From: Chelativorans salis | GTDB taxonomy: Bacteria; Pseudomonadota; Alphaproteobacteria; Rhizobiales; Rhizobiaceae | Reading direction: 5' to 3' | Assembly (NCBI RefSeq): GCF_025336525.1 | Contig: NZ_JAOCZP010000001.1 | Location: 372,001 to 436,000, forward strand | DNA length: 64,000 bases | In this document: one piece after another, positions 27,146 to 46,964 of the stretch | Numbering within the stretch: position 1 is the stretch's first letter | How the letters are laid out: every line of letters starts with the position of its first letter | Position numbers and translations under genes: made by a program | The notes under the pieces: model-generated | Told to the model about the DNA's origin: nothing | What the model saw: the letters and a program-made list of their open reading frames with translations, nothing else | The model's database searches: none

Positions 27146-27155
27146 GGCTCGTCTC

Positions 27156-27353
27156 CTACTTCGTGTGGGTGTCGGGGCGATAGTTGATGAGCAGCGCCCA
27201 GGCGCAATAGACGCCGACGCCGCCGAAGAGGGCACCCCAGAAGGGCGAGGCCGAGGCAAACTCGAACGCCGCCCAGCCGAGGCAGACGGCGACGATGGCT
27301 ACCCGCCGCCAGAGGGGGCGGAAGAAGGGATGATCGGCGTCGAAAAGCTGCAT
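27156..27353 (-). CDS. DUF3329-like small membrane protein in the iol operon
   Basis: A 65-residue protein: MQLFDADHPFFRPLWRRVAI followed by two hydrophobic stretches (AIVAVCLGWAAFEFA and FWGALFGGVGVYCAWALLI), so probably a two-helix inner-membrane protein with cytoplasmic ends. Small proteins with the same DxDHPFFRPLWRR opening are encoded beside iol genes in other rhizobia, from memory under DUF3329. It sits between iolE (22 bases) and iolB (10 bases), clearly in the operon. No function is known. Confidence 0.8.
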   Translation of the reverse strand: MQLFDADHPFFRPLWRRVAIVAVCLGWAAFEFASASPFWGALFGGVGVYCAWALLINYRPDTHTK

Positions 27354-27375: not shown

Positions 27376-28275
27376 CTACGACCGGTCCAGCCCTGCAGCC
27401 CTGGCCGCGGCCTTGAGCGCGTCCAGGCCCATGGACTGATATTTTACGGGATCGGCCTTCCCCGGATCCTGCTCGGCCTCGATGACGAGCCAGCCATCGT
27501 AGCCGTGTTCGGCAGCGACCTTCAATACCGGCTCGAACTCGAGCGCGCCTTCCGGATCGCCGGGCACGGTGAAGACGCCGCGCCTGACGCCTTCGAGGAA
27601 GGAAAGCCCCTCCTCTTCCACCTGGCGCCTGATCGCCGGCCGCACGTTCTTGGCATGGAAATGGCCTACCCGGTCCATATACGTGCGGGCGAGTTCGACC
27701 GGATCCGAGCCGCCGAACCAGGCGTGGCCGACGTCGAGGAGCAGCTTGGTGGCGGGGCCCGTGCCGGCCATCAGGCGACCGATCTCGTGGCGGGTCTGGA
27801 CGATGGTGCCCATGTGATGGTGGTAGACGAGATCGATCCCCTGCCCTGCGCAATACTCGGCGATGGCCTCGACACCGGCGCAGAATTTCGGCCAATCGCC
27901 CTCGGCCAGCACCGGCTTGTCCTTAAGCGGCACCGCTTCGTTGCCATGGATGGCGTTGGAGGTCTCGCAGACGACGCAGACCTTGCAGCCATTCGCCTTC
28001 AGCATGTCGAGATGCGGCTGGATGGCGCGCTTTTCCGTCTCTATGTCGTTGACGAGCAGGTTCAGGGAGTGCCAGCCGGAGATGAAGAGGAGGCCGTGGG
28101 CGGCCAGCACCTTCTTCAGCTCCTCTCCGTCGGAGGGCATCTTGTGGCCCTTCTCGATGCCGGAAAAGCCGATTGCGGCGGCCTCGCGCAGGCACTGCTC
28201 CAGCGGGATGTGGGCGCCTATTGTCTGGTCGTCGTCGTTGGACCATGCGATGGGGTTGGTGCCGTAGCGGATCAT
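27376..28275 (-). CDS. iolE: Myo-inosose-2 dehydratase
   Basis: A 299-residue TIM-barrel enzyme that dehydrates 2-keto-myo-inositol to 3D-trihydroxycyclohexane-1,2-dione. The start [20 protein letters not shown] and the block [20 protein letters not shown] are diagnostic of IolE. The metal-binding region [20 protein letters not shown] and [20 protein letters not shown] follow. The length is normal. The ATG follows the iolD stop directly (TGA-ATG), so the two are translationally coupled. Confidence 0.96.
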
Positions 28276-30099: not shown

Positions 30100-32012
30100 G
30101 CGGCCCTCCCTCGTTTCGCCCGCGCGCGGTCCCACACCTCGCACAGGGCGCGGTATTTCTCTGCCATTGTGGCGACGGCCTCCTGGTCGCCGATCTCGCC
30201 GGCCAGCCAGCGGCGCGCGGCGTCGGCGAAGATGGTGCGGCCGACGGCGAAGCCTTTCACAAGATCGAAGCCGGCTGCAACCGCAAAACTCTCCTCAAGC
30301 TCGGCCGCCGGCGCGTCAAGTCCCAGGACGACGATGCCGCGCGTATAGGGGTCGTTGCGGGTGATGGCGCCGCAAGCGCTCTCCCACGCCTTCCCGGAGG
30401 TCATCGGCTCAAGCTTCCACCAGTCGGGATAAACGCCGATCTCGTAGAAGCGTTCGATGACCGCGGCGGCGGTCTCATCATCGACGGCGCGCACCTTGGA
30501 GGGAATGATCTCCAGAAGCATCTCCAGCCCGTTGCGGCGGCTGGCGGCGAAGAGCCTTTTCACCACGTCCTCCTGGCGCGCCTTCACTTCGGCGTCATCG
30601 TCGGGGTGATAGAAGCACAGGACCTTGACTACGTGCTCCAGCGGCCATTCGACGAGGCCGCCGAAGTCGGGTCCAATCTCCTGCTCCAGTTTGAGGGGGC
30701 GCGAGCCCGGCCATTCGACCGGCCGGCCGATCCACAAGCCGCTGCCGGCCGCCCGGTAGAGCGCTTCGCGGCCATGTCGGCCGTCGCAGAGGATGCCGTG
30801 GCCGTGCTTGCCGCCAGCTACCTGCCGCGCCGCCTCCAGGCACAGCACCTTGAACGCGCCGATGCGCTCATGCGGCACGCCTGCGGCGTCCGCCATCTCC
30901 TCGAGCTGCATTCGGTGGTCGAAGGCGAAGACGCGCATTTCCTGCCAGTCGCCCTTGCGGTTGGTCGACCAGTGCACCTGCTCCAGAGCCGCGTCCTTGC
31001 GCAGGGCGCGGTTCTTGATGCCGGTGCGGAAGAAATACTGCAGTTCCTCCCACGAGGGATAGGCCGGCGTGCAGCCGTGACGTGAGACGGCAAAGGCACC
31101 GCAGGCGTTGGCGTATTTCAGTGTCGTGGGCCAGTCCTCGCCGGTAAGCCAACCCTTCAGGAGCCCGGCCATGAAGCCGTCGCCGGCGCCGAGCACGTTG
31201 AAGACCTCGATGGGAAAGTACTCGCCCGCCTCGCCCTCGTCCAACGTGTCGGGGATGGCGCCGGTGAAGGCGGAAGCGCCCATCGGGCCGCGCTTGCACA
31301 CCAGCACGGCGTCCGTGAGGCGGCGCACGGTGCACAGCGCTTGAATAGTGTTGGTGGAGCCGCCGGCGATGTGGAACTCTTCCTCCGTGCCGACAATCAG
31401 GTCGAAAAGCGGGAGCGTCTTCTGGAGCTTGGCGGTCACCCGCTCGGATTCGATGAAGCGGCTTTCGCCGGCGCCGTGGCCGGCGAGGCCCCAGAGATTG
31501 GGACGGTAGTCGATGTCGAGCGCCGTCTTGGCGCCGCTCTCGCGCGCCAGCTTCAACGCCTTCAGGACGGCGGCTTCCGTGCGCGGGTGCGACAAGTGTG
31601 TGCCGGTGGCGCACACGCAGCCCGCTTCTGCAATGAAAGCGAGATCGATATCGTCTTCCTCTAGCGCCATGTCGGCGCAGTTCTCGCGGTAGAAGATGAG
31701 CGGGAACTGCTCCTGGTCGCGGATGCCCAGCAGCACGAGCGCGGTCAGCCGTTCCGGGTCGGTCTTCACGCCGCGCACGTCGACGCCCTCGCGCTCGAGC
31801 TCCTCGCGGATGAAGCGGCCCATGTGCTCGTCGCCGACGCGCGTGATCAGCGCCGACTTCAGCCCCAGGCGCGCGGCACCGGCGGCGATGTTCGTGGGCG
31901 AGCCGCCGATATATTTGTTGAAGGAGGCCATATCCTCCAGCCGCCCGCCGACCTGCGCGCCGTAAAGATCGACCGACGAACGGCCGATGGTGATGACGTC
32001 GAGGGGCTTCAT
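30096..32012 (-). CDS. iolC: 5-dehydro-2-deoxygluconokinase fused to a DUF2090 domain
   Basis: A 638-residue two-domain protein. Residues 1-330 are a PfkB-type sugar kinase: PLDVITIGRSSVDLYGAQVG, GGSPTNIAAGAARLG, and FNVLGAGDGFMAGLLKGWL with the catalytic Asp in GAGDGF. It phosphorylates 2-deoxy-5-keto-gluconate. Residues about 335-638 are a DUF2090 TIM-barrel (VFAFDHRMQLEEMADAAG), which by homology to aldolases may split the kinase product (the IolJ step). The fused form is common in proteobacteria and could explain the lack of a separate iolJ here. It is the first gene of the iolCDE operon, with GGAA-N6-TTCC upstream. Confidence 0.94.
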   Translation of the reverse strand: MKPLDVITIGRSSVDLYGAQVGGRLEDMASFNKYIGGSPTNIAAGAARLGLKSALITRVGDEHMGRFIREELEREGVDVRGVKTDPERLTALVLLGIRDQEQFPLIFYRENCADMALEEDDIDLAFIAEAGCVCATGTHLSHPRTEAAVLKALKLARESGAKTALDIDYRPNLWGLAGHGAGESRFIESERVTAKLQKTLPLFDLIVGTEEEFHIAGGSTNTIQALCTVRRLTDAVLVCKRGPMGASAFTGAIPDTLDEGEAGEYFPIEVFNVLGAGDGFMAGLLKGWLTGEDWPTTLKYANACGAFAVSRHGCTPAYPSWEELQYFFRTGIKNRALRKDAALEQVHWSTNRKGDWQEMRVFAFDHRMQLEEMADAAGVPHERIGAFKVLCLEAARQVAGGKHGHGILCDGRHGREALYRAAGSGLWIGRPVEWPGSRPLKLEQEIGPDFGGLVEWPLEHVVKVLCFYHPDDDAEVKARQEDVVKRLFAASRRNGLEMLLEIIPSKVRAVDDETAAAVIERFYEIGVYPDWWKLEPMTSGKAWESACGAITRNDPYTRGIVVLGLDAPAAELEESFAVAAGFDLVKGFAVGRTIFADAARRWLAGEIGDQEAVATMAEKYRALCEVWDRARAKRGRAA

Positions 32013-32151
32013 CAAATCACTCCTCCCTGATCGATGCGCATTCCGGATCGGCGAGAGACCGCCGCCACGTGGCGGCTTCGCTTCCTCTAGCAGCTCGCGC
32101 CTTCCGCCTCACGGACGTGGCCAAGAGCCGCTGGCGCGTTCAAGCCATTAT

Positions 32152-32184: not shown

Positions 32185-33018
32185 TCATGGAATTCCATTT
32201 TTCCGGGCGCGATTGGCCGTGCCCACGGCGACGACCAGAGCTACGGCGAGCGAAAGTGTTGCCGAAAGCGAGCGGAAATCGCCGAAGTCGGCTTCCGAGA
32301 CTGTGAGGAGCAGCGGTGTGACCGGGCGCAGGGGGCTCGCCAGCGAGTCGGTGATGGCCACCACCTTGGCGCCGGCGCGCGCGCCGGCCTCGGCCAGCGC
32401 CACCGTCTCCGGCGAATAGGGGGCGAAGGTAATGGCGATCACGGCATCGCCCTCGCGGATCGCATGGCGGCTGTCGAGATTCCCGACGCTGTCGTGCAGC
32501 ATGGTCGGCACATTCATCTTCTCGAAGGCGTAGGCAAGGTAGGAGGCGACGGAGAAGGCGCGGCGCATGCCGACGATGTGCACCATGTTCGCCTCCGACA
32601 GCGCCTTGATGGCCGTATCGAGGGCGCGCGGGTCGAGCGTCTTGGCGAGGTTTTCGAGCGACAGCCGCCCCGCCTCGACGAATTCGGCGAGAAGCGCGGA
32701 AGGGCTACCGGCCCCGCTCTCGCGCAGCTTTTCCAGGCGCGTGGCATAGTCCGGCCAGTTTTGCGCATAGGAATCGCGGAACAGGCGCTGCATCTGCGAG
32801 AAGCCGGAGAAGCCCAGAACCTGGCAGAAGCGCATGAAGGCTGACGGCTGGACACCGGCCCCCTCCGACATCTCCGCCACCGTCGAGACGGCGACGCGGT
32901 CCGGGTTGGCCGCCACATACTCGGCGCACTGTCTGAGCCGCTTCGGCAGGCCGTCCGAGACCTCGAGGATGCGGTCGAGCAACTCCTCTATACTTGCCGG
33001 TGCCGAGCGTGCATCCAT
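32185..33018 (-). CDS. iolR: RpiR/MurR-family repressor of inositol catabolism
   Basis: A 277-residue regulator with an N-terminal RpiR HTH (VSTVAEMSEGAGVQPSAFMR with FCQVLGFSGFSQMQ) and a C-terminal SIS sugar-binding domain (MVHIVGMRRAFSVASYLAYA and AIREGDAVIAITFAPYSPET). It precedes iolCDE in the order seen in S. meliloti (iolRCDEB), where IolR represses the pathway until an inositol intermediate relieves it. Matching operator motifs lie both upstream of this gene and upstream of iolC, which supports autoregulation. Confidence 0.92.
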   Translation of the reverse strand: MDARSAPASIEELLDRILEVSDGLPKRLRQCAEYVAANPDRVAVSTVAEMSEGAGVQPSAFMRFCQVLGFSGFSQMQRLFRDSYAQNWPDYATRLEKLRESGAGSPSALLAEFVEAGRLSLENLAKTLDPRALDTAIKALSEANMVHIVGMRRAFSVASYLAYAFEKMNVPTMLHDSVGNLDSRHAIREGDAVIAITFAPYSPETVALAEAGARAGAKVVAITDSLASPLRPVTPLLLTVSEADFGDFRSLSATLSLAVALVVAVGTANRARKNGIP

Positions 33019-33097: not shown

Positions 33098-34102
33098 CTA
33101 TGCCAGAACCTCCGAAACCTTTACCGCCCGCCCTTCCTTCAGCGAGCGGTAGGCGGCGTCGGCCAGTGCCAGCGCCTTCAGCCCGTCGTCGCCCGAGGGA
33201 GAAGCAGTCTTCCCGCCGCCGATCGCCTCGATAAACGCCGCCATCTCGGCCGCATACGCTTCGGTGTAGCGGGTCATGAAGAAGTCGTGCAGGGGCGGCC
33301 TCGTGAACCCCTCGCCCGTGGCGATCTCTATCGATACCGGCCGCTGGTTCTCCGCCGAGATCGCGCCCTTCTCGCCAAGCACCTCGATGCGCTGGTCATA
33401 GCCGTAGGTGGCGCGGCGCGAGTTGGAGATGGCGCATTGCTTGCCGGAGGCCGTGGCAAGCACTACCGACACACTGTCGTGGTCGCCCAGTTCGCCGATC
33501 TCCGGGTCGACCAGAACAGAGGCCGTCGCGAAGACCGTGTCCGGCTCCTCGCCCAGAAGGAACCGCGCCATATCAAAATCGTGGATCGTCATGTCGCGCA
33601 GGATGCCGCCCGATGATTTGATATAGGTCGCCGGCGGCGGTCCCGGATCACGCGAGGTGATCTGCACCATCTCGACCTTACCGATGCTGCCCTCGTCAAT
33701 GGCCGCACGCACGGCTGAAAAATGCGGGTCGAAGCGGCGGTTGAAGCCGACCATGAGCGTGGTGCCGGTCTCCTCCACCACCTTCAGGCAGGCCTTCACG
33801 CGGCCAAGGTCAAGGTCGATGGGCTTCTCGCAGAAAACCGCCTTGCCGGCGCGCGCGAAGCGCTCGATCAGGTCGGCGTGCGTGTCGGTGGGCGTGCAAA
33901 CCACCACGGCATCGATGTCGTTGGCCGTCTCGATCTCGTCGATCGTGCGCACCGCGCAGCCGTATGTGACCGCGATGGCCTGAGCGGCCTCTGCAAAGGC
34001 ATCGGCAACCGCCACGAGCTTGGCGTCCGCATTACCGGAGATGGCGCGGGCGTGCACCTTGCCGATGCGCCCGGCGCCCAAAAGAGCAAATTTTACGGTC
34101 AT
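33098..34102 (-). CDS. iolG: Inositol 2-dehydrogenase (Gfo/Idh/MocA family)
   Basis: A 334-residue NAD-dependent dehydrogenase. The Rossmann motif is FALLGAGRIGKVHARAISG, the catalytic-lysine motif is VFCEKPIDLDLGRVKA, and the conserved SSGGILRDMTIHDFDMARFL (Asp and His of the active site) is present. It aligns with rhizobial myo-inositol dehydrogenase IdhA/IolG, which oxidises inositol to 2-keto-inositol as the first step. It stands upstream of iolR on the same strand, with AGGAAG before the ATG. Closely related enzymes act on scyllo- or chiro-inositol, so the exact isomer is uncertain. Confidence 0.88.
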   Translation of the reverse strand: MTVKFALLGAGRIGKVHARAISGNADAKLVAVADAFAEAAQAIAVTYGCAVRTIDEIETANDIDAVVVCTPTDTHADLIERFARAGKAVFCEKPIDLDLGRVKACLKVVEETGTTLMVGFNRRFDPHFSAVRAAIDEGSIGKVEMVQITSRDPGPPPATYIKSSGGILRDMTIHDFDMARFLLGEEPDTVFATASVLVDPEIGELGDHDSVSVVLATASGKQCAISNSRRATYGYDQRIEVLGEKGAISAENQRPVSIEIATGEGFTRPPLHDFFMTRYTEAYAAEMAAFIEAIGGGKTASPSGDDGLKALALADAAYRSLKEGRAVKVSEVLA

Positions 34103-34152: not shown

Positions 34153-34932
34153 CTATTCAGGATAGGCGCCGGCGACGTTCTGATCGCAGTCGATAATCGC
34201 GCCGGTTAGCACGCCCGATTCCGGTGACAAAAGATAGGTGGCGAGCGGCGCGACCTGGGCGGGCTTCACCAACTGCCCGAAGGGTTGCGCGGCTTCCGCC
34301 CTTTCCAGCCAGTCGTTGGGTGCGTCGTGAAAGCGCTTCTGGGTGACGTCCTCGCCAGGCGTATCCATCCAGCCGCAAGCGATGGCGTTGCAGCGTATGC
34401 GGTCGCGGCGATGCGCCTGCGCGGTGTTTTTCGTGATGTTGGCGAGAGCTGCCTTGGAAGCCGAATACGGCGCCAGATAGGATTGGCCGCAATGGATGAC
34501 CATGGAGACGATGTTGACGATGGAGGCCGCGATGCGGTGCTCGAGCGCCTGACGCACGAAGGCTTGCATGGTGAAGAAGGGTCCGCGCGCATTGATGTCC
34601 ATCAGTTTGGCCCAGACTTCCGGTGTCGTATCGAGCAGGGTTCCCCGGTCGCAGCTAGCGGCCGAATTGACCAGCGCGTTGAGCGGCCCGATAAGTCCGC
34701 CGGCCTTGTCGATGGCCGCCTGACATTCGTCGACGTTGCCGAGATCGGCAGCGATGAAGTGCGCCTCGCAGCCGAGCTTGGCAAGGTCGGCAACCGCGTG
34801 CTCGCCCTTTTTCCGGTCACGGCCGGTTATGACAACGACCGGACTTCCTTCCGCAGCGAGCTGCCGCGCGATAGCGAGCCCCAGCCCCTGGGTGCCGCCG
34901 ATAATGACAGCACGTGTGTCTTTGTTGCACAT
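34153..34932 (-). CDS. Short-chain dehydrogenase/reductase
   Basis: A 259-residue classical SDR. The cofactor motif is AVIIGGTQGLGLAIARQLAA (TGxxxGxG with the first Thr as Gly), a catalytic Ser is in NIVSMVIHCGQ, and YSASKAALAN is the YxxxK motif. It lies 50 bases upstream of iolG and downstream of the ABC transporter on the same strand, so it probably acts in the same polyol pathway, for example oxidising another inositol isomer or an amino- or methoxy-inositol. The substrate is not readable from sequence. Confidence 0.88.
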   Translation of the reverse strand: MCNKDTRAVIIGGTQGLGLAIARQLAAEGSPVVVITGRDRKKGEHAVADLAKLGCEAHFIAADLGNVDECQAAIDKAGGLIGPLNALVNSAASCDRGTLLDTTPEVWAKLMDINARGPFFTMQAFVRQALEHRIAASIVNIVSMVIHCGQSYLAPYSASKAALANITKNTAQAHRRDRIRCNAIACGWMDTPGEDVTQKRFHDAPNDWLERAEAAQPFGQLVKPAQVAPLATYLLSPESGVLTGAIIDCDQNVAGAYPE

Positions 34933-35002: not shown

Positions 35003-35782
35003 TCAGATATAGCTCGCGTTCTCGTGGACGCCGGTCTTCACGCCGGTGATCAGCGAGACGACCTCGTTGCCGTCGGTCTTGTCGGCCTCCAGCATGCCGG
35101 CGATCCTGCCGCGGCGGAACACCCAGATCTTGTCAACCAAGTTGAAGACCTGACGCAGATTGTGGCTGACAAGGATCAGCGGGATGCCCTGCTTCTTCAG
35201 ACCGCGGATAATGTTCTCGACCTGCGTCGTCTCCTGCACGCCGAGTGCGGCCGTCGGCTCGTCCATGATGATGAGCTTGGAGGCGAAGCTGGCGGCACGG
35301 GAGATCGCCACGCACTGGCGCTGGCCGCCCGACATGTTGGCGATGCTGTTGCGCAGGTTGGGAATTTTCACGCCCGTCCGCTCCAGCGCTTCCATCGAGT
35401 TCTTGTACATCTTCTTCTCGTTCAGGAAGCTGAAGGGCCCGAGGTTGAAATAGGTCTCCTCGCGGCCGAGGAAGATGTTGGACGGCACGTCGAGGTCGTC
35501 AGCAAGCGCCAGGTTCTGGAACACCGCCTCGATGCCGAAGTCGCGCGCGTCGATGGGGCTGTTGAAGGCCACCTCCTTACCGCCGAAGAAGATCTTGCCC
35601 GCCGTCGGCTGCTCGACACCAGTGATCTGGCGCACGAAGGTGGACTTGCCGGCACCGTTGTCGCCCACGATGGCCACGTGCTCGCCCTCATGGAGGGTGA
35701 AGTCGGCATCCTCGAGCGCATGCACGCCGCCGTAGTATTTGGTCAGACCTTCGGTCTTCAGGACAATGCCGTCATTCGCCAT
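35003..35782 (-). CDS. Sugar ABC transporter ATP-binding protein (ribose/fructose type)
   Basis: A 259-residue ATPase with a single nucleotide-binding domain, as in FrcA, not the doubled form of RbsA/MglA. Walker A is GDNGAGKSTFVRQI, the signature is NMSGGQRQCVAISRAA, Walker B is LIIMDEPTAALG and the H-loop is ILVSHNLRQVF. It energises import through the permease encoded upstream. GGAGG precedes the ATG. A solitary palindromic repeat (35859-35902) lies between it and the permease gene. Confidence 0.93.
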   Translation of the reverse strand: MANDGIVLKTEGLTKYYGGVHALEDADFTLHEGEHVAIVGDNGAGKSTFVRQITGVEQPTAGKIFFGGKEVAFNSPIDARDFGIEAVFQNLALADDLDVPSNIFLGREETYFNLGPFSFLNEKKMYKNSMEALERTGVKIPNLRNSIANMSGGQRQCVAISRAASFASKLIIMDEPTAALGVQETTQVENIIRGLKKQGIPLILVSHNLRQVFNLVDKIWVFRRGRIAGMLEADKTDGNEVVSLITGVKTGVHENASYI

Positions 35783-35903: not shown

Positions 35904-36947
35904 CTATCGCGCACTGGTGCGGTATCTCTGGCGGTACACGTCGGCCACCACGGCGGCGACGATGATCGCGCCCATGATCATCTCCTGGTAGTAGGCACTC
36001 AGCCTCAGGAAGGTGAAGCCGGAAATGATGACGCCGAAGATGGCGGCACCGATAACCGTGCCGACAATCGAGCCGCGGCCGCCCGAGAGCGACACGCCGC
36101 CGATGACGGCCATGGCGATCGCCTGCAGTTCGTACATGGTGCCCATGCCAGCCTGCGCCGTGAGGCCGCGGGCGGCGATGACGATGCCGGCCAACGAGGC
36201 CAGCATGCCGGCAATCGCGTACACCATGATCAGATGCCGCTCGACGCTGATGCCGGAGACCCTTGCCGCGCTCTCGTTGGAGCCAATGGCATAGGTGTGC
36301 TTGCCGTAGACGGTGTATTTCAGCGCCACGTGGAAAAGCAGGGCAATTGCCAGGAAGATGAAGACCGGCGTCATACCCTGGCCGATGGCGGCGAAGCTGT
36401 CGGTGGGGAAAGAGACCGGCTGGCCCCGGGTGTACCACTTGGCGGCGCCGCGCGCGGTGACCATCATGCCCAGCGTGGCGATGAAGGGCGGGATCCGCGT
36501 ATAGGCGATCAGCGCGCCGTTGATTAGGCCGGCTCCCAGCCCGACACCCAGGCCGATAAGCACGGGGATGATGACCGGCAGGTCCGTAAGGTTGGGATAG
36601 ACGGCGCGCGGATAGGTGCTCACCTGGGCAAAACTCATGGCGACCATGGCCGTCAAGCCGACGATGGAGCCCGATGAAAGGTCGATGCCGCCGGTGATGA
36701 TCACCTGCGTCACGCCGATGGCGATGATGCCCACCACCGCGACCTGGAGAATGATGATGCTGAGACGCTGAGCGTTGAACAGGAAGCTCTGCCCCTGGAA
36801 AACCCAGCCGAGAATCTCGAAGATGAGCGCGATGCCGACAAGCCCCATAAGCGCATTCAGCTCATGAGAGCGCTGCCGCTTTCCGCCTTCAACCGTTGCC
36901 GGCGCGGCAACCGGTTCCGCCTGATTTGTCACCGTTCCTTCGGTCAT
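35904..36947 (-). CDS. Sugar ABC transporter permease (RbsC/FrcC type)
   Basis: A 347-residue inner-membrane permease with about eight to ten helices. The family segment GGIDLSSGSIVGLTAMVAMS, the cytoplasmic loop GSNESAARVSGISVERHLIM and IGGVSLSGGRGSIVGTVIGA are characteristic. The first ATG (36954-36956) touches its own GGAGGT, so the ATG three codons later (36945-36947), nine bases from the same site, is the more likely start. It works with the adjacent ATPase and binding protein. A sugar, inositol or rhizopine substrate is expected for this subfamily. Confidence 0.92.
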   Translation of the reverse strand: MTEGTVTNQAEPVAAPATVEGGKRQRSHELNALMGLVGIALIFEILGWVFQGQSFLFNAQRLSIIILQVAVVGIIAIGVTQVIITGGIDLSSGSIVGLTAMVAMSFAQVSTYPRAVYPNLTDLPVIIPVLIGLGVGLGAGLINGALIAYTRIPPFIATLGMMVTARGAAKWYTRGQPVSFPTDSFAAIGQGMTPVFIFLAIALLFHVALKYTVYGKHTYAIGSNESAARVSGISVERHLIMVYAIAGMLASLAGIVIAARGLTAQAGMGTMYELQAIAMAVIGGVSLSGGRGSIVGTVIGAAIFGVIISGFTFLRLSAYYQEMIMGAIIVAAVVADVYRQRYRTSAR

Positions 36948-37005
36948 GACGGCCATACCTCCCTTGGCGGGCGTGCCGGCTTTGGGCCGGCCGCCGTCTG
37001 GTCGT

Positions 37006-37059: not shown

Positions 37060-38004
37060 TCAGTTCATGCTCGTGAACTTTTCCATGTTCTCGGGCGTGA
37101 CGAGCTGGAAGGGAATATACACCTTCTGGTCGACCTCTTCGCCGCGCACGAGCTTCAGCGCCGTGTCGACCGCGCCCTTGCCCTGGCCCGCCGCATCCTG
37201 GAACACGGTCACGTCGAGATCGCCGGCGGCCATGGCGGCCAGCGCATCCTGGGTGGCGTCGACACCGCCGACCAGCATCTCGTCCATGGAAATGCCGGCA
37301 GCCTTCATGGACTGGATGGCGCCGATAGCCATCTCGTCATTGTTGGAGACAAGCGCGTCGAACTCGAGACCCGCCGAGAGCCAGTTGGTCATCAGGTCGG
37401 CGGCCTCGGTGCGATTCCAATTGGCCGTCTGCTCCTCGACGATCTCCATGAAAGAGCATTCGTCCGTGGCGATCACGTCATGGATGTCCTGGGTGCGCTG
37501 ACGGGCGGCCTGGTTGGACAGCTCACCCATCATGACGACGATCTTGGCGCCGTCGCCCTTGCCCTGCTCCTTAAGGAGACGGCAGATCTCCTGCGTCTCC
37601 AAGGTGCCGGACTCACGCTCATCGGAAGCCACAAAGGCCTGGTTCTCGGGTAGCTCATCAACATTCACCGGCTCGCGGTTGACATAGACCAGCGGTACGC
37701 CGGCATCCGCAGCCGCCTTGGTCATGGCGACCGTGGCGTCGGTGTCGACCGGGTTTACGATCACCGCGTCGACGCCGGAGGCGATGAAGTTCTGGATCTG
37801 GTTGAGCTGCTTGCCGACGTCGTTCTGCGCGTCTTCGACCTGCAGTTCAACGTCGTCCATCTCGTCGGCGTAGTCCTGCATGCCGTTGCGTAGCACGGTA
37901 AGGAAGTTGTCGTCGAACAGCGCCATGGAGACACCGATCGTTTCGGCAAAGGCCGACGTCGTCATCAGCGCCGAAACGGCAGCGCCCAACAAAAGCTTTT
38001 TCAT
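37060..38004 (-). CDS. Sugar-binding protein of ABC transporter (RbsB/MocB type)
   Basis: A 314-residue periplasmic protein. MKKLLLGAAVSALMTTSAFA is a typical signal peptide. The mature protein starts ETIGVSMALFDDNFLTVLRN, with FIASGVDAVIVNPVDTDATV and EFDALVSNNDEMAIGAIQSM, the standard blocks of the ribose/galactose binding family (Peripla_BP_4). The ATG at 38002-38004 has GGAGGAG upstream. Among relatives is the rhizopine-binding MocB. The position beside an IolI-like isomerase and a LacI regulator, opposite the moc-like operon, suggests an inositol-type ligand. Confidence 0.92.
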   Translation of the reverse strand: MKKLLLGAAVSALMTTSAFAETIGVSMALFDDNFLTVLRNGMQDYADEMDDVELQVEDAQNDVGKQLNQIQNFIASGVDAVIVNPVDTDATVAMTKAAADAGVPLVYVNREPVNVDELPENQAFVASDERESGTLETQEICRLLKEQGKGDGAKIVVMMGELSNQAARQRTQDIHDVIATDECSFMEIVEEQTANWNRTEAADLMTNWLSAGLEFDALVSNNDEMAIGAIQSMKAAGISMDEMLVGGVDATQDALAAMAAGDLDVTVFQDAAGQGKGAVDTALKLVRGEEVDQKVYIPFQLVTPENMEKFTSMN

Positions 38005-38234
38005 CAGATTGCTCCTCCACACGATGGGTGTCCGGTAGCACCCCCTGTTTGGCCGGAATCCCCTTAGCGGGAATCTTTGCGAGAATTTCCAGTGGCTTGC
38101 ACACCGGGAGCGCGGCGCATTCCGCGCCTCCTCCCTCCTGGAAATAGAACATCACCACCGTTCTACCATCGATATAAAATATTTATTCCATTTTCTGCCG
38201 CCACGTCAAGGCGTATTCCGTTTTCTCGTTCGTT

Positions 38235-39068
38235 TCATGCCGCCCGGCGGCGCGATTGCGCCGTGATATGATCCATGCTGCTGGCGAGCGCGACGCGGAG
38301 ATCGGGCAACCTGTGGACGGCCTCCGAGAACGGCTCGAATGACAGCGGCCCCTCATAGCCGGCGGCGAGAAGTGCTGCGATCTGGCCGGTATTGTCGAGC
38401 CGGTCGTGCTCGTCGACGAGAACGCGATGGCCGTCGCGCATTTCGGCGGTGGCGATGGCGCCGTCGGTGACGCCGGAGATATGCATAAGGCCGGTATGGG
38501 CGGCAAAAAGCGCCCTTTCGCCGGCCAGATGATGATGGAACGTATCATGGACGATGCGGAAGGTGTCGCCGGCGCCAAGGGCGTCGATCGCCTCCACCGC
38601 CTCGGATTTGTAGCGTAGCGAGGAGGTCTCGAAGCCGAGCGGCTCCACGAGGCCGGCAATCCCGTTCTCGGCCAGAATCGGCCGCAGCGCCTTCAGCGCA
38701 ATGCGCAGGTTCGCCTGGCGCTCGCCATTCGCCCGGCCCGTGCCGTCGTTGGCGGGCACCAGCACCAGGGCCTCCGCCCCGCACGCCTTCGCATAGGCGA
38801 TAAGCGCGCGCGCCTCTTCCTCGCGCGCCTCGTCCCAGGCGTTGAAGCGCTGCAGCGCGTTGATGGAAAGGATGCGCAAGCCGCGCGCGGCGGCGGCCTG
38901 GGCGACCGCCGCCGGCTCCGTGCCGTCGGCAATGGCGGTGCCGGCGATGTCGTTGCGGATTTCGACGCCGGTTGCGCCGAGCCTCCTGGCCAGGACGAAG
39001 AAGTCGGGAATGGAAAGACCTGGTGCGCACATGTGATTGAGCGCGAAAGCAGGGATGTCTGACGTCAT
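38235..39068 (-). CDS. TIM-barrel sugar isomerase, IolI-like
   Basis: A 277-residue AP-endonuclease-2-fold protein. It begins MTSDIPAFALNHMCAPGLSI and continues with GATGVEIRNDI, LRILSINALQRFNAWDEARE and FRIVHDTFHHHLAGE. These parallel the metal and substrate residues of inosose isomerase IolI of Bacillus, which interconverts 2-keto-myo- and 1-keto-D-chiro-inositol. Such an activity would let chiro-inositol enter the iol route. GAGGAT precedes the ATG; the longer frame adds 12 residues. It is encoded between the LacI regulator and the ABC binding protein. The isomerase role is an inference from modest similarity. Confidence 0.72.
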   Translation of the reverse strand: MTSDIPAFALNHMCAPGLSIPDFFVLARRLGATGVEIRNDIAGTAIADGTEPAAVAQAAAARGLRILSINALQRFNAWDEAREEEARALIAYAKACGAEALVLVPANDGTGRANGERQANLRIALKALRPILAENGIAGLVEPLGFETSSLRYKSEAVEAIDALGAGDTFRIVHDTFHHHLAGERALFAAHTGLMHISGVTDGAIATAEMRDGHRVLVDEHDRLDNTGQIAALLAAGYEGPLSFEPFSEAVHRLPDLRVALASSMDHITAQSRRRAA

Positions 39069-39176
39069 GATGGAATCCTCCTTGGCGGGCCGAACGGCGG
39101 CCACCGCCTGTGGGCATGAGGATGATCAGCGGACCGCGAGCGGTCAACGCAATCCTGCGAGTAAATCCATCATTTG

Positions 39177-39210: not shown

Positions 39211-40242
39211 TCACAAACTTTCCGGTACATGCAGCGCCGGCGTCAGGAATAGCTGGCCCGGCGTCTCCGACGGGCCGTCGCGCACCGCGCTTGCCATGTG
39301 GTCCAGCAGCGTGCGGCAGAGAGTGGGGAGCGGCGTGGCGATGGCGGCGACGATCAGATGTTCCTGAAGGGCGGCGGCCGAATCCTGCGTCAGCTCGTTG
39401 ACGACGACCGAGGGCAGCGGATCGGGCGGCTCATCGCGGAGTGCCGCGATCGCGCCCTCCATGCCGCCGCCGGCGACATAGAAGCCGACGATGTCGGGGT
39501 ATCGGTCGAGCAGGTTCAGCGTTGCTTCGTATGTGACCTGCCGGGTCTCCAGATTGACCAGCGTCTCCAGGATCTCGAACTGTGGCGCAAATTCGCGGAA
39601 GTAGCTGCGGAAGCCGGTTTCGCGCAGCTCGTGCCCGTGCCAGCGGTGGCTGCCGACGAAAACCGCCACCTTGCCGACTTTCGGCGCCGTACGCGAGATA
39701 AGCCAAGCGGCCGTGCGCCCGACCTTCAGATTGTTCAAGCCCACATAGCTTTCACGCACCCCTTGGGCGAAGTCGGACAGCAGCGAGAAGACAGGCTTGC
39801 CGCTGGCTTTCAATGCACTCACGGCCTGCGTCACGGTGTGATGATCGAGACTGGTGGCGGCGACAGCCTGCGCGCGCTGACCGAGCGCCTCCAGCCGCTC
39901 AGCCACCTCCACCGGCGTCTGGCTTTTCACATACTCGACATGCGCGTTGACACGAACGCCCGTGGTTGCCCCGGCCGCCTCCTGCAGAGCCTTTCCGAAG
40001 GCCTGGTAGAAGGGCTGCGCCTCCTTCTGCAGGAGGAAGGCGAAGTCCATCTTCGGCAGGTCGGCGGTGATGCGCTGGTGGATGAGTGCGGCGGCGTGAT
40101 AGCCGATTTCGCTTGCCGCCTCGTAGACCCGGCGCGCCGTCTCCTCGCGGACGCGGTGGCGGCCATTCAAGACCCGATCGACGGTGGCGACGCTGACACC
40201 GGCCTCTCTTGCCAGATCGGCGATGGTCGGACGGCGGCCCAT
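39211..40242 (-). CDS. LacI-family transcriptional regulator
   Basis: A 343-residue regulator. RPTIADLAREAGVSVATVDR then VLNGRHRVREETARRVYEAA is the LacI HTH and hinge. The periplasmic-binding-like ligand domain has EYVKSQTPVEVAERLEALGQ and PDIVGFYVAGGGMEGAIAAL. AAGGGGG precedes the ATG. It is divergent from the MocD-like gene and upstream of the isomerase and ABC importer on its own strand, so it is well placed to control both sides in response to an inositol or rhizopine-type compound. Confidence 0.92.
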   Translation of the reverse strand: MGRRPTIADLAREAGVSVATVDRVLNGRHRVREETARRVYEAASEIGYHAAALIHQRITADLPKMDFAFLLQKEAQPFYQAFGKALQEAAGATTGVRVNAHVEYVKSQTPVEVAERLEALGQRAQAVAATSLDHHTVTQAVSALKASGKPVFSLLSDFAQGVRESYVGLNNLKVGRTAAWLISRTAPKVGKVAVFVGSHRWHGHELRETGFRSYFREFAPQFEILETLVNLETRQVTYEATLNLLDRYPDIVGFYVAGGGMEGAIAALRDEPPDPLPSVVVNELTQDSAAALQEHLIVAAIATPLPTLCRTLLDHMASAVRDGPSETPGQLFLTPALHVPESL

Positions 40243-40253
40243 CGAACCCCCTT

Positions 40254-40269
40254 TGATAATGATCTATCA
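40254..40269. promoter_or_regulatory. Palindromic site between the LacI gene and the moc-like operon
   Basis: TGATAATGATCTATCA has TGATA/TATCA ends and lies 12 bases upstream of the LacI ATG and about 110 upstream of the desaturase-like gene. A perfect 10-base palindrome, AATCATGATT, follows nearby (about 40278-40287), and a TGATAG lies beyond it. These are candidate operators for the divergent promoters; the exact site is not settled. Confidence 0.4.
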
Positions 40270-40377
40270 GGAAATCTAATCATGATTTGATGGAAAATGA
40301 TAGAAAAAATTGCATTCGGCTTGAGGACTCTCACGCCTATGCGTAGCATCAAGGTCATCGGAGGAGGTGCTAGAGAG

Positions 40378-41454
40378 ATGGCCAAACGCGATTACAGCCT
40401 TACCGGACCGAACGCCAGCCGCGCCGTCGAAACCGGCCTCGCCTCGGCAGAGTGGTATCACACGGACGTGTCCCGCAAGGAGATGAAGGCGCTGATGAAG
40501 CGCAGCGACGGGCCGGCCATCCGCGACACCATCATCTGGCTCGGCGCCACGGTTCTGTTCGCCGTCGCGGCCATCTGGCTGTGGCCGTCCCTCTGGTCGA
40601 TCCCCTTCTTCCTCGCCTATGGCGTGCTCTACGGCTCGGCCGGCGATTCACGCTGGCACGAATGCGGCCACGGCACTGCCTTCAAGACGCGCTGGATGAA
40701 CGACGCGGTCTACCAGATCGCCTCGTTCACCATGATGCGCAATCCGGTGACCTGGCGCTGGAGCCATGCGCGCCACCACACCGACACGATCATCGTCGGC
40801 AGGGATCCGGAGATCGTCGCCATGCGGCCGCCGGACCTCCTGCGCCTGGCGCTCAACTTCTTCGGCATTCTCGACGTCTGGCATGCCGTGGTCGACATGG
40901 TGCGCAATGCGGCCGGTGTCATCAGCGCCGAGGAGAAGACATTTGTCCCGGAACAGGAGCAGCCGAAGGCAATCCGCATCGCCCGCATCTGGGTGGCGAT
41001 CTACGCCGCCACGGCGGCGGCCGCGGTCTATACCGGCTCAATCCTCCCCTTCCTCATCATCGGCGGCCCGCGGCTGTACGGCGCCTGGCACCATGTGATG
41101 ACGGGACTTCTGCAGCACGGCGGGCTCGCGGAGGACGTGACCGACCACCGGCTCAACAGCCGCACGGTCTACATGAACCCGGTCAGCCGCTTCATCTACT
41201 GGAACATGAACTACCACGTGGAGCACCACATGTTTCCCATGGTGCCCTACCACACGCTGCCGAAGCTGCACGAAATGATCAAGCACGACCTGCCGGCGCC
41301 GAACACGTCGATCCTTGACGGCTACCGCGAGATGCTTCCCGCGTTCCTGCGGCAGCTACGCTACGAGGACTACTTCATCAAGCGCGAGTTGCCGCCGACG
41401 GCGAAGCCATACCGGGCCGAGTTCCACGACGTGGCACCGCAGGCGGCGGAATAA
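40378..41454 (+). CDS. MocD-like di-iron oxygenase (fatty acid desaturase superfamily)
   Basis: A 358-residue membrane-bound di-iron enzyme. The three histidine boxes are present: DSRWHECGHGTAF (HxxxH), WSHARHHTDT (HxxHH) and YHVEHHMFPMV (HxxHH). Hydrophobic helices lie between them. GGAGGAGG at 40360-40367 precedes the ATG; the longer frame adds 27 residues. It heads an operon with a Rieske ferredoxin and a flavin reductase, exactly the mocDEF set that in Rhizobium leguminosarum removes the O-methyl group of 3-O-methyl-scyllo-inosamine. I infer an oxidative demethylase. A true fatty-acid desaturase is less likely given the electron-transfer partners and the neighbouring inositol genes. Confidence 0.85.
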   Translation: MAKRDYSLTGPNASRAVETGLASAEWYHTDVSRKEMKALMKRSDGPAIRDTIIWLGATVLFAVAAIWLWPSLWSIPFFLAYGVLYGSAGDSRWHECGHGTAFKTRWMNDAVYQIASFTMMRNPVTWRWSHARHHTDTIIVGRDPEIVAMRPPDLLRLALNFFGILDVWHAVVDMVRNAAGVISAEEKTFVPEQEQPKAIRIARIWVAIYAATAAAAVYTGSILPFLIIGGPRLYGAWHHVMTGLLQHGGLAEDVTDHRLNSRTVYMNPVSRFIYWNMNYHVEHHMFPMVPYHTLPKLHEMIKHDLPAPNTSILDGYREMLPAFLRQLRYEDYFIKRELPPTAKPYRAEFHDVAPQAAE

Positions 41455-41476
41455 CAAGCAACCAAGGAGGCAAGAC

Positions 41477-41791
41477 ATGTCCGAATGGGTGGACGCGTGC
41501 GCCGTCGACGATGTGGAGGAAGAGGACCTGATCCGCTTCGACTATGACGGGAAGACCTTCGCCATCTATCGCAGCCCGGACGACGACTTCTTCGCCACGG
41601 ACGGGATCTGCACACACGAGCATGCGTTTCTCGCCGACGGGCTGGTGATGGACTACATCATCGAGTGCCCGAAGCATAACGGCCGCTTCGACTACCGTAC
41701 CGGCGAAGCCAAGGGCGCTCCCGTCTGCGTTGACCTGAAGACTTATCCCGTCAAGGTAGAGGACGGCCGCGTCTTCATCGACGTGGCGTGA
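41477..41791 (+). CDS. MocE-family Rieske [2Fe-2S] ferredoxin
   Basis: A 104-residue soluble ferredoxin. The cluster ligands are in GICTHEHAFLADG (C-x-H) and IIECPKHNGRFDYRTG (C-x-x-H), 17 residues apart, as in Rieske oxygenase ferredoxins. AAGGAGG lies 7 bases before the ATG, which is 22 bases after the MocD-like stop. It should carry electrons from the MocF-like reductase to the MocD-like oxygenase. The start differs from the longest frame, which overlaps the oxygenase gene. Confidence 0.93.
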   Translation: MSEWVDACAVDDVEEEDLIRFDYDGKTFAIYRSPDDDFFATDGICTHEHAFLADGLVMDYIIECPKHNGRFDYRTGEAKGAPVCVDLKTYPVKVEDGRVFIDVA

Positions 41792-41796
41792 GCGCC

Positions 41797-42990
41797 ATGG
41801 GCGACATTCTCATCATCGGTGCAGGCGAATGTGGCGTGCGCGCCGCCTTCGCGCTGCGCGAGGCGGGGCACGAGGGCGGCATCACGCTGATCGGCGCGGA
41901 GCCGCACCTGCCATACGAGCGCCCGCCTCTTTCCAAGACCGCGCCGACGGCGCCGAAGGTCATCGCCGAGGAGGCGCGCTATGCGGAGGCCGAGATCGCG
42001 CTGGTGCGCGGCAGCCGTGTGGCAAGCATCGATCGCGCGGAAAGGCGCGTGCGGCTTTCTGACGGCAGCGCCCTTCCCTACGACAAGCTCCTTCTCGCCA
42101 CCGGTGCGCGGGCACGCCGTTTTCCCGGCATGGAAGCGGCGTTAACACTCCGCAGCCTTGATGACGCGCGCAGTATCCTCGACGCGCTCGGCCCCGGCCT
42201 TAAGCTCGCCATCATCGGCGGCGGCTTCATTGGACTTGAGCTTGCCGCCACCGCGCGGAAGCTGGGCGCCGAGGTCACCGTGGTCGAAGCGGCCGAGCGG
42301 CTGATGGCGCGCATCGTGCCGGCGGAGATCGCGGAAGCGGTGGCCGGGCGCCACCGGACAGAGGATGTCGAACTGATCCTTGGAACGGGGGTGGCCGAGG
42401 TGCGGGAAAACAGCATCACCCTTGCCGATGGGCGCGTGATCGAGGCCGATATGGTGGTGGCCGGCGTCGGTGCGGAGCCGGAGACGCGGCTGGCCGCGGA
42501 GGCCGGGCTCGAGATTGCCAACGGCATCGTCGTCGATGGTCGGCTCGCCACCAGCGATCCTCACATCTTCGCCGCCGGCGACTGCTGCTCCTTCCCCCTC
42601 AATAGTGCGCGCGTGCGGCTGGAAAGCTGGCGCTGTGCGCAGGACCAGGGAGCGCATGCGGCCCGCGCCATGCTAGGCTGCGAGGACGCCTATGCCCGCG
42701 TGCCCTGGTTCTGGTCCGATCAGTACGATCTCACTTTGCAGGTGGCGGGCTTGCCCGACCCATCGCTCGGCCATGTCCGCCGCGATCTCGGCGACGGCGC
42801 CTTCATCCTATTCCAGCAAGACGACACCGGACGCCTCGTCTTTGCGAGCGGAGTGGGGAGCGGCAATGCCGTCGCCAAGGATATCAGGCTCGCTGAGATG
42901 ATCATAGAAAAAGGCATCAGGCCGGACCCGGCGCAGTTGAAGGATCCGGCGGTCAATTTAAAAACGGTTTTGAAGGGGGTGCCGGCATGA
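41797..42990 (+). CDS. MocF-like FAD-dependent ferredoxin reductase
   Basis: A 397-residue flavoprotein of the Rieske-reductase class. FAD site: GDILIIGAGECGVRAAFALR and LPYERPPLSK. NAD(P)H site: LAIIGGGFIGLELAATARKL. Second FAD site: HIFAAGDCCSFPL. The C-terminal reductase domain begins near WFWSDQYDLTLQVAGLPDPS. A GTG three codons upstream (41788) overlapping the ferredoxin stop is an alternative start. It passes electrons from NAD(P)H to the MocE-like ferredoxin. Its stop overlaps the ATG of the next gene (ATGA). Confidence 0.93.
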   Translation: MGDILIIGAGECGVRAAFALREAGHEGGITLIGAEPHLPYERPPLSKTAPTAPKVIAEEARYAEAEIALVRGSRVASIDRAERRVRLSDGSALPYDKLLLATGARARRFPGMEAALTLRSLDDARSILDALGPGLKLAIIGGGFIGLELAATARKLGAEVTVVEAAERLMARIVPAEIAEAVAGRHRTEDVELILGTGVAEVRENSITLADGRVIEADMVVAGVGAEPETRLAAEAGLEIANGIVVDGRLATSDPHIFAAGDCCSFPLNSARVRLESWRCAQDQGAHAARAMLGCEDAYARVPWFWSDQYDLTLQVAGLPDPSLGHVRRDLGDGAFILFQQDDTGRLVFASGVGSGNAVAKDIRLAEMIIEKGIRPDPAQLKDPAVNLKTVLKGVPA

Positions 42991-43790
42991 AGAGGCCCAA
43001 CAGGAAGACCATTGCGGACCTGCGCGCGCTGCGCGGCCGGCGCCAGCTTGCCATGCTGCGCGTGGAAACGTTGGAAGAGGCCGAGGCGGCGGAGCGGGCG
43101 GAGATCGACATGGTGTCGGTACCGCCCTCCATGATGCTCGACCCCGCCTTCCGGGAGGTCGCGCCCACCGTCTTCGCCGTCCCCGGCGACAACTTCTTCG
43201 AGATCGGTACGACCGACGATTTCATCCGCTGGGCTTTCCGCCTCTATAAGGCGGGGGCGGACGCCGTCTACTGCTCGGCCGGCACGGAGACCGTCCGCCG
43301 GCTCGCCGAGGAGGGTATTCCCGTTTGCGGCCATGTCGGCCTCATCCCCTCCAAGGCCACCTGGACCGGCGGCTTCAAGGCCGTCGGCAAGACGTTTGAG
43401 ACGGCGCAACTCGTCTGGAGCCAGGTCAAGGCGCTGGAGGAAGCCGGGGCGTTTGCGGCGGAGATCGAGGTAGTGCCGGAGGCGATCGCCAGCGAGATTT
43501 CCAAGCGCACCTCTCTCTTCATGATCTCCATGGGCGCCGGCGCCGGCTGCGATGCGCAGTATCTCTTCTCCGATGACGTGCTGGGCGCCAACACAAGCCA
43601 TGTGCCGCGCCACGCCAAGACCTACCGCAACTTCGCCGCCGAATACGCCCGCCTGCAGGCGGAGCGCATCGGCGCCTATCGCGAATTCGCCGACGACGTG
43701 CGCTCAGGCGCCTACCCGCAGGCCGGGCACAAGGTGGAGGCGGACGGGGAAACAGTCTCCCGCTTCCGTGATTGGCTGGAGGCGCAATAG
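42987..43790 (+). CDS. PanB-like protein (ketopantoate hydroxymethyltransferase superfamily, altered active site)
   Basis: A 267-residue TIM-barrel protein. EEGIPVCGHVGLIPSKATWT with GGFKAVGKT and FSDDVLGANTSHVPRHAKTY match PanB in order. The catalytic glutamate aligns (EIEVVPEAIA with PanB LECVP). However, the metal-ligand GDS motif is replaced by SVPPSMM, the second Asp region by FAVPGDN, and the keto-acid-binding Lys (PanB VKIEGG) by VYCSAG. It is therefore unlikely to make ketopantoate. PanB transfers a hydroxymethyl from methylene-tetrahydrofolate, so in an operon with a demethylase and PurU a folate C1-handling role is attractive. GAAGGGGG precedes the ATG. Confidence 0.75.
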   Translation: MKRPNRKTIADLRALRGRRQLAMLRVETLEEAEAAERAEIDMVSVPPSMMLDPAFREVAPTVFAVPGDNFFEIGTTDDFIRWAFRLYKAGADAVYCSAGTETVRRLAEEGIPVCGHVGLIPSKATWTGGFKAVGKTFETAQLVWSQVKALEEAGAFAAEIEVVPEAIASEISKRTSLFMISMGAGAGCDAQYLFSDDVLGANTSHVPRHAKTYRNFAAEYARLQAERIGAYREFADDVRSGAYPQAGHKVEADGETVSRFRDWLEAQ

Positions 43791-43846
43791 GGGATAGATA
43801 CACCTGAACCCGCGCCTCGTCCTCCAGCACCTACCGAGACCAGCCC

Positions 43847-44707
43847 ATGAGCGAAAAGACCTTCGACATCAATCTCTCCTGCGAGGACCGGCCGGGCATT
43901 GTCTCCGCCGTCACCACCGAGCTTGCCGCGCTCGGCGCCAACATCGCCGAGTCGAACCAGTTTTGGGACCGGCAGACCAACCGCTTCTTCATGCGCATTT
44001 CGTTCACCACGCCCGACGGCGTGGAGCGCGACGCGATTGCCCGCGCGCTGGAGCCGGCCATCGCCCGCTTCGACATGAAGACAGCGCTCGCCAATCGCTC
44101 GCGGCGGCCGAAAATCATCATCATGATCTCGAAATTCGACCACGCGCTTCTCCACCTCCTCTACCAGATCCGCGTCGGCTGGCTCGACGCCGAGGTGGTC
44201 GCCATCGTCTCCAACCACGAGGATTCTCGACGGACGGCAGAGGCGGAGGACATCCCCTATCACCACTGGCCCGTGACCAGGGAGAACAAGGCCGAGCAGG
44301 AGGAGAGGCTGCTTGCGCTGGTAAAGGAGACGGGTGCCGACCTCGTTGTGCTAGCCCGCTATATGCAGGTGCTCTCCAATGAATTGTCGAATCGGCTCTT
44401 CGGCAAGATCATCAACATCCACCACTCCTTCCTGCCAAGCTTCAAGGGGGCAAAACCCTATCACCAGGCGCATGAGCGCGGGGTGAAGCTCATCGGCGCC
44501 ACGGCGCACTACGTGACGCCGGACCTCGACGAGGGGCCGATCATCGAGCAGGAGACGGAGCGGGTGACGCATGCCATGAGCGCGGAGGATTTCGTGGCGG
44601 CGGGGCGGGATATCGAAAGCCGCGTGCTGGCGCGGGCGGTGAAGCTGCACCTGGAAAGCCGGGTGATGCTCAACGGGCACAAGACGGTGGTGTTCGCGAA
44701 GGGGTAG
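43847..44707 (+). CDS. purU: Formyltetrahydrofolate deformylase
   Basis: A 286-residue enzyme releasing formate and tetrahydrofolate from 10-formyl-THF. An N-terminal ACT domain (INLSCEDRPGIVSAVTTELA, residues about 8-80) precedes the formyltransferase-type catalytic domain. The active-site Asn and His are in INIHHSFLPSFKGAKPYHQA, and the Asp is in THYVTPDLDEGPII-like AHYVTPDLDEGPIIEQE. The length is normal. It lies 56 bases after the PanB-like gene on the same strand. PurU homologues accompany demethylating systems in rhizobia, where they dispose of C1 units; the placement here supports that role. Confidence 0.95.
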   Translation: MSEKTFDINLSCEDRPGIVSAVTTELAALGANIAESNQFWDRQTNRFFMRISFTTPDGVERDAIARALEPAIARFDMKTALANRSRRPKIIIMISKFDHALLHLLYQIRVGWLDAEVVAIVSNHEDSRRTAEAEDIPYHHWPVTRENKAEQEERLLALVKETGADLVVLARYMQVLSNELSNRLFGKIINIHHSFLPSFKGAKPYHQAHERGVKLIGATAHYVTPDLDEGPIIEQETERVTHAMSAEDFVAAGRDIESRVLARAVKLHLESRVMLNGHKTVVFAKG

Positions 44708-45747: not shown

Positions 45748-45801
45748 CGTCCCCTCACATATCCGAAGCAGGAAGAGGAATCGGCGAGAATGGGGCCGCC
45801 G

Positions 45802-46842: not shown

Positions 46843-46898
46843 TGGCCCTATTTCATCCGAATCACGAAAAAAATAATTGGTTCACATGGGAAAAAGGG

Positions 46899-46904: not shown

Positions 46905-46931
46905 CCCCTGCCACTGCAAATCAAGCTAGTA

Positions 46932-46945: not shown

Positions 46946-46964
46946 AATTGCAGGATCAAGCGAT

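Follow-up and report, generated by a model that had tools for sequence, protein, structure and literature searches.

The stretch of DNA considered here (hereafter the window) is a 64,000-nucleotide piece of the 5.66-Mb genome of Chelativorans salis (contig NZ_JAOCZP010000001.1, positions 372,001 to 436,000). Between positions 40378 and 44707 its plus strand carries genes for MocD, MocE, MocF, a PanB-like protein (PanBL) and PurU, in this order, and this five-gene set is divergent from genes for a LacI-family regulator, an IolI-like isomerase and an ABC importer, which run on to an inositol (iol) cluster. An earlier note, made from the letters alone, had described a demethylase operon with its first four genes tightly packed, and, opposite to it, genes for LacI, an IolI-like protein, a ribose-type importer, a short-chain dehydrogenase/reductase (SDR), iolG and iolRCDE-B. 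This layout is correct: all of the latter are found on the minus strand, and "tightly packed" is apt, as the gaps from MocD to PanBL are 22, -4 and -4 bases; 56 bases separate PanBL from PurU. The five-gene order is seen again in many other genomes, and this recurrence makes it more than a chance arrangement. The module is real, widely conserved and partly described before, and the step assigned to PanBL is its new and uncertain part. Gene content, gene order, wide conservation, the five-gene order shared with rhizopine loci, and the loss of PanB residues are direct results.

The oxygenase trio mocDEF, a mark of rhizopine loci, is present here. MocD matches PF00487 with 125 bits, and its three histidine boxes, HxxxH, HxxHH and HxxHH, were located by eye, in agreement with its earlier reading as a di-iron oxygenase; no PDB chain is related to it by sequence at E 0.01. 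The longest open reading frame of MocD extends over 40297-41454, and the ATG at 40378 is a better start, because it is preceded by GGAGGAGG and because the alignments of most close relatives begin no earlier than residues 19-31 of the long frame. MocE scores 175.4 against the TIGR02377 cut-off of 136.15, and, with MocD and MocF assigned by Pfam, the Moc-type character of the trio holds. PurU scores 336.8 against the TIGR00655 cut-off of 285.95.

Relatives of MocD were collected from 297 genomes of the family, giving 100 places above 240 bits; regions of up to 20 kb were taken around 80 of these, and 77 of the 80 hold a MocD of at least 50% identity (all except L138, L139 and L142). With thresholds of our own choice, a region was called type A if a counterpart of the window's LacI (at least 50%), IolI-like gene or binding protein lies within 9 kb of MocD, and type B if a different Gfo/Idh dehydrogenase, TIM-barrel isomerase or DUF4432 gene is near it. 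The 77 regions divide into 46 of type A, 16 of type B and 15 of neither. LacI and MocE are present in all 46 type A regions, MocF in 44, PanBL and the binding protein in 34 each, the IolI-like gene in 32, IolG in 21 and PurU in 11; the inositol-type neighbours are thus conserved across genera, as had been suggested. PanBL is present in all 16 type B regions. In some type B loci (L143, L114, L119, L121 and L122) an aromatic amino acid lyase gene lies near PanBL on the opposite strand.

In an order-wide search of 297 genomes the listed PanBL scores fall in two groups, one of 131-592 bits and one of 107 bits or less, the lower being taken as true PanB without testing its members one by one. A PanBL family profile (E 1e-40) finds 27 of 337 genomes in a sample of the class, 21 of them near full length, and 19 of 349 in a sample of the phylum, all 19 within the same class. 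A scan of contigs with the PanBL alignment confirmed 563 loci, of which the best 80 were kept: 74 have MocD and 72 MocE, and they comprise 35 of type A, 34 of type B and 11 of neither. This set and the MocD regions share genomes (for example, L065 and L208). The closest of the best 80 is in Chelativorans sp. YIM 93263 (L209), with identities of 90% for MocD, 89% for the binding protein and 85% for PanBL. Plasmid pSymB of S. meliloti 1021 also has a copy of the LacI-MocD-E-F-PanBL set (L163, 7893-12786); its genes are taken to be SMb20817-SMb20820, which are LacI, mocD, mocE and mocF in the available part of PMC11387232.

Judging by sequence and predicted structure, PanBL is a descendant of PanB and not PanB itself, and it cannot be expected to bind Mg-ketoisovalerate in the PanB manner, because a predicted PanB fold is combined with the loss of PanB residues. 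Its match to PF02548 is strong (148.6 bits, family cut-off 28.7) and covers profile positions 93-258 only, and it stays below both NCBIfam PanB cut-offs (133 against 272, and 111 against 207.55). Residues were counted after aligning 105 relatives with PanB of E. coli and PanB of the genome itself. Asp84, Lys112 and Glu114 of PanB, which serve in metal and keto-acid binding, are lost in every one of the 105: the first position is Gly, Ala or Ser, the second is Tyr in 100, and 91 have Ala or Ser at the third. The VGDS motif, in a loosely aligned stretch, has likewise lost its Asp in all of them. In contrast, all 105 retain His136 and Glu181, 103 retain Asp209, and 103 carry Lys or Arg at position 151. 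The AlphaFold2 model of PanBL (pLDDT 93.1) has PanB chains as its 28 top Foldseek hits, followed by the PEP mutase/isocitrate lyase superfamily. PanBL is like PanB (PDB structures: 1m3u and 3vav) in its fold, its C-terminal half, His136 and Glu181, and unlike it in the loss of the three residues that are present there. A true panB, followed by panC (recognised by eye), sits elsewhere in the same genome, and the naming of PanBL as a pantothenate enzyme is a widespread misannotation.

The same five genes occur in rhizopine loci. In S. meliloti RCAM1115 (L167) a MocR scoring 756.5 against a cut-off of 650 is followed by a frame-broken MocD, then MocE, MocF, PanBL and PurU. This MocR, used as query, led to 14 plasmid records. 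All nine that were opened (L167, L297-L304) have the order MocR-MocD-MocE-MocF-PanBL-PurU, and in the other five PanBL lies, by coordinates, about 2.9 kb from MocR. The broken frames of PanBL in L300, L301 and L302 and of MocD in L167 reflect decay or sequencing error. Identities to the window are 77% for MocD (83% over a piece in L167), 67-73% for MocE, 56-58% for MocF, about 67% for PanBL and 49-55% for PurU. Bahar reportedly gave mocDEF, in 1998, a role in rhizopine breakdown, and is cited to this effect in PMC10107442. Rhizopine loci with mocDEF are known from S. meliloti, R. leguminosarum, R. lentis and Phyllobacterium (PMC10107442, PMC6668481), and those opened here share the five-gene order of the window; PanBL and PurU behind mocDEF are unreported in the open literature examined, which does not include Bahar 1998 and 2000, so that mocDEF of these loci has two followers beyond those given in the texts at hand. 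In a quick tree, eight rhizopine MocDs lie among LacI-type MocDs. We claim only this much: the rhizopine rows take two places in the tree, as separate origins would have it, but a single clade is not rejected by the approximately unbiased (AU) test (p-AU 0.499, with 101 of 112 rows, 11 long branches being left out).

From these results we infer a substrate, an oxygenase reaction, an operator and a reaction of PanBL. The locus probably serves the breakdown of a non-aminated O-methyl-inositol, which may be pinitol, sequoyitol, ononitol or a related compound, with import, oxidative O-demethylation and passage of the one-carbon (C1) unit to folate; this substrate class appears well supported by context, as the partner genes here are of inositol type. 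The ribose-type ABC importer would take up the methyl-inositol, and the LacI regulator would respond to it through TGATA/TATCA sites in the lacI-mocD interval. Electrons would pass from NADH through MocF and MocE to MocD, which may hydroxylate the O-methyl group, leaving the free ring and a C1 unit at the level of formaldehyde. The ring would be converted to inosose by the IolI-like isomerase, the SDR and IolG, and degraded by IolE, IolD, IolB and IolC. The C1 unit would go to tetrahydrofolate, most likely aided by PanBL, and be oxidised in its folate-bound form by FolD, with PurU releasing formate; the role of PurU as C1 outlet, assumed from the start, is supported.

A comparable reaction is known for 6-O-methyl-galactose of porphyran, a sugar whose methoxy group is demethylated oxidatively with formaldehyde as product; the enzyme there, a P450, is of a different oxygenase family than MocD (PMC10033563, partial text). 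Pinitol and ononitol are widespread in legumes (PMC8730688, partial text), and a bacterial route for their demethylation was not found in the literature examined, in so far as its text was accessible; the locus is a five-gene candidate for it, with a regulator and a candidate operator. In excerpts of PMC5789663, pinitol is the top measured component of Mimosa root exudate (145 uM, inositol being at 0.73 uM), and R. mesoamericanum in this exudate has mocDEF homologues up 1.5-2.1-fold and a mocB-like importer up 4-4.7-fold, which the authors read as possible rhizopine use. Pinitol and ononitol were among the compounds given to a rhizopine sensor, and the activators named in the available text of PMC6668481 are scyllo-inosamine and L-3-O-methyl-scyllo-inosamine (L-3-O-MSI) only.

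The role of PanBL is suggested by its company. Among 40 regions chosen by PanBL, 18 are without a MocD of at least 50% identity. Eight of these 18 have a PF04116 di-iron hydroxylase (at least 35%) within 9 kb (L158, L190-L194, L196 and L197), L203 has a weaker one (33%), L199 and L201 have a distant MocD (45% and 39%), and in L202 a Rieske oxygenase gene overlaps PanBL. Elsewhere in the class, a MocD-type gene is beside PanBL in L293, and L295 (2232-4783, from a 1.6-Mb genome) has a tandem pair of PanBL genes next to a PhyH-type dioxygenase gene of opposite strand; the short stretches L294 and L296 revealed no oxygenase. Because PanBL accompanies different importers and dehydrogenases, and because PF04116, Rieske and PhyH oxygenases take the place of MocD, the common factor of the oxygenase-linked loci points to the one-carbon product and not to the ring. 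A C1 role also fits a locus where PanBL faces PurU, with no oxygenase among the genes tested (L210), and one in Aminobacter aganoensis (L280, 310-9798) where PanBL comes right after iolB and ends a permease-iolG-C-D-E-B run, with no oxygenase among the few neighbours examined.

FolD, two copies of PurU and a glutathione formaldehyde dehydrogenase are encoded in the window's genome, and Fae has no match there. To our knowledge, the enzyme that loads formaldehyde on folate is still missing, and PanBL is a candidate for it. That PanBL helps to load the C1 unit on tetrahydrofolate is a tentative assignment, in which our confidence is somewhat less than even. More doubtful, taken as a whole, is the wider proposal that PanBL is the folate counterpart of Fae, with the keto-acid site given up, transferring C1 to tetrahydrofolate from free formaldehyde or the product of the oxygenase, and carried by several unrelated oxidative demethylases; as a connected part of it, O-methyl-inositols would be what the LacI/FixV family senses, and plant pinitol or ononitol would give the signal that turns on nifA2 of Mesorhizobium loti in the nodule.

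Several observations weigh against the proposed pathway, in its inositol part or its folate part. Linkage to iol genes, set beforehand as a test, came out mixed: the IolI-like, binding-protein and IolG counts in type A speak for it, whereas core iolC/D/B lie within the fetched region (up to 20 kb) in only 6 of 46, and 16 MocD regions have another dehydrogenase/isomerase set; for these two reasons the demethylase looks like a module serving several substrates. PanBL was not seen in 12 of the 46 type A regions (at least L099 is cut by a contig end), and in a Nitratireductor locus (L165) PurU stands directly after MocF, so PanBL is not obligatory. It is split across two frames in three of the nine opened rhizopine loci. 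The PF04116 genes range from adjacent to as far as 7.5 kb away, and L206, one of the 18 regions, is a 3-kb contig with MocE only. No oxygenase was seen among the genes examined (not all were tested) in L188, L189, L195, L198 and L200, which rules out that PanBL always stands beside one. Folate would not be the sole C1 route, given the glutathione formaldehyde dehydrogenase, and that the kept half of PanBL is the folate half is a guess. Finally, of the best 80 of 563 loci, only 9 have PurU close to PanBL.

This last count, together with the association of PanBL with inositol and sugar genes, favours the alternative that PanBL acts on the ring or a hemiacetal intermediate, and not on folate. We regard it as unlikely, PanBL being common to differing importer and dehydrogenase sets and found near differing oxygenase families. 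A substrate that is an O-methyl sugar and not an inositol, with the neighbouring GalM (44740-45747) as part of the pathway, is improbable: GalM of at least 60% identity is near MocD in 4 of the 46 type A regions, a GalM-like gene (39-41%) lies directly behind MocF in L081, L082 and L085, and the type B loci carry Gfo/Idh, TIM-barrel isomerase and DUF4432 genes, but the window's GalM is on the opposite strand, and an IolG above its curated cut-off and the iol cluster are immediately adjoining. The PanB fold, and the transfer of hydroxymethyl groups by PanB, would suit a PanBL that is a metal-type aldolase joining formaldehyde to a keto acid, or a maker of ketopantoate; the complete loss of Asp84, Lys112, Glu114 and (in the loose alignment) the VGDS Asp, and the true panB and panC elsewhere, make this quite improbable.

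Rhizopine (3-O-methyl-scyllo-inosamine) catabolism, the first substrate named in the earlier note, is very improbable at this locus, even though the five-gene order equals that of the nine opened loci and the binding protein is 68-69% identical to theirs. The rhizopine binding-protein model NF052284 does not discriminate between the two: it gives 42.3 against 420 bits for the window, and the binding protein of the rhizopine locus L167 also has no match at E 1e-20. Rhizopine was set aside on the genome-wide MocR model and the neighbour genes: among the 5 of 45 first-look candidates in the window's genome that were scored with NF052281, the highest reaches 410 where the cut-off is 650, so that rhizopine itself is unlikely; LacI stands in place of MocR; and the mocA/B/C/R set of rhizopine loci is absent here, where the iol cluster and IolG adjoin. 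MocR hits in the genome sample are not always beside mocDEF, as 15 regions around such hits (L173-L187; 13 hits exceed the cut-off and 2 do not, and contig ends truncate some of the regions) are without MocD or PanBL, and the model may take in regulators outside demethylase loci. Of the original interpretation, the Moc-type trio, the conserved inositol-type neighbours and PurU as C1 outlet are supported, and the rhizopine option is not. A MocD acting as desaturase or plain ring hydroxylase, as its Pfam family (FA_desaturase) might suggest, is hardly credible in view of the Rieske partner, PurU and the rhizopine precedent.

Regulation of the proposed methyl-inositol pathway may be linked to symbiosis. 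Of 89 distinct intergenic stretches between LacI and MocD, 47 contain TGATAGAA or its complement (100 shuffles: mean 0.64, maximum 4), and 26 contain TGATA-N4-7-TATCA (shuffled mean 0.09, maximum 1), a signal that the shuffles overstate because the stretches share descent. In the window, TGATAGAA is at 40298 and TGATA-N6-TATCA at 40254, and a third TGATAGAA at 30607 is inside iolC. These TGATA/TATCA sites are a candidate operator for LacI; promoter and terminator scans gave no signal above shuffles. M. ciceri WSM1271 has two close homologues of the window's LacI, one divergent from MocD and next to a binding protein of like kind (L305), the other, 57% identical, beside an IolI-like gene and a NodD-type gene recognised by eye (L306). 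The latter seems to fit the published description of the fixV/msi119 homologues in M. ciceri, and the window's LacI, compared with the M. ciceri homologues and not with FixV of strain R7A, likewise appears to resemble FixV.

According to the available text of PMC3538637, nifA2 of M. loti is activated by FixV, and the trigger may be an inositol derivative. FixV homologues beside mocDEF were already noted there, and the FixV-linked clusters of M. loti and M. ciceri have, as in the window, a LacI and TIM-barrel "epimerase" pair and a LacI divergent from mocD; unlike the window's setting, FixV of M. loti R7A controls nifA2. The terms ketopantoate, hydroxymethyltransferase, panB, purU and formyltetrahydrofolate are absent from that text, figures aside. 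Pinitol and ononitol are accumulated in nodules of Lotus, and pinitol is a cargo of a symbiosome transporter (PMC8730688, in part). Through the locus, the ligand of FixV, the activator of nifA2, could be tested directly.

Table 1. Genes and candidate sites of the demethylase locus and the adjoining iol cluster (positions in the window)
Feature	Position	Strand	Evidence
MocD-like di-iron oxygenase, 358 aa from ATG 40378	40378..41454	+	PF00487, 125 bits; start from ribosome-binding site and relatives
MocE-like Rieske ferredoxin	41477..41791	+	TIGR02377 above cut-off
MocF-like FAD ferredoxin reductase	41788..42990	+	PF07992, PF14759
PanBL	42987..43790	+	partial PF02548 match; PanB residues lost; AlphaFold2 fold nearest PanB
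PurU, formyltetrahydrofolate deformylase	43847..44707	+	TIGR00655 and NF004684 above cut-off
Candidate operators TGATA-N6-TATCA (40254-40269) and TGATAGAA (40298-40305)	40254..40305	.	intergenic recurrence
LacI-family regulator, FixV-like	39211..40242	-	PF00356; 55% and 57% to two M. ciceri homologues
IolI-like TIM-barrel isomerase, Msi119-like	38235..39104	-	PF01261; PDB 2q02/4hgx, 138.6 bits
ABC importer substrate-binding protein	37060..38022	-	PF13407; 68-69% to counterpart in nine rhizopine loci
ABC importer permease	35904..36956	-	PF02653
ABC importer ATPase	35003..35782	-	PF00005
SDR oxidoreductase	34153..34932	-	NF004847, 349.7 vs cut-off 240
IolG inositol 2-dehydrogenase	33098..34102	-	TIGR04380, 424 vs 355; PDB 4hkt, 544.6 bits
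IolR-type RpiR regulator	32185..33018	-	PF01418, PF01380
IolC kinase/aldolase fusion	30096..32015	-	NF047869, 733 vs 600
IolD	28276..30144	-	TIGR04377, 929 vs 715
IolE	27376..28275	-	TIGR04379, 354 vs 290
IolB	26330..27259 (frame limits; true start probably further in)	-	TIGR04378, 335 vs 205

IolG, IolC, IolD, IolE and IolB all exceed their curated cut-offs. Directly past PurU, at 44740-48278, GalM, a second LacI regulator and a family-1 solute-binding protein open another sugar-type cluster.

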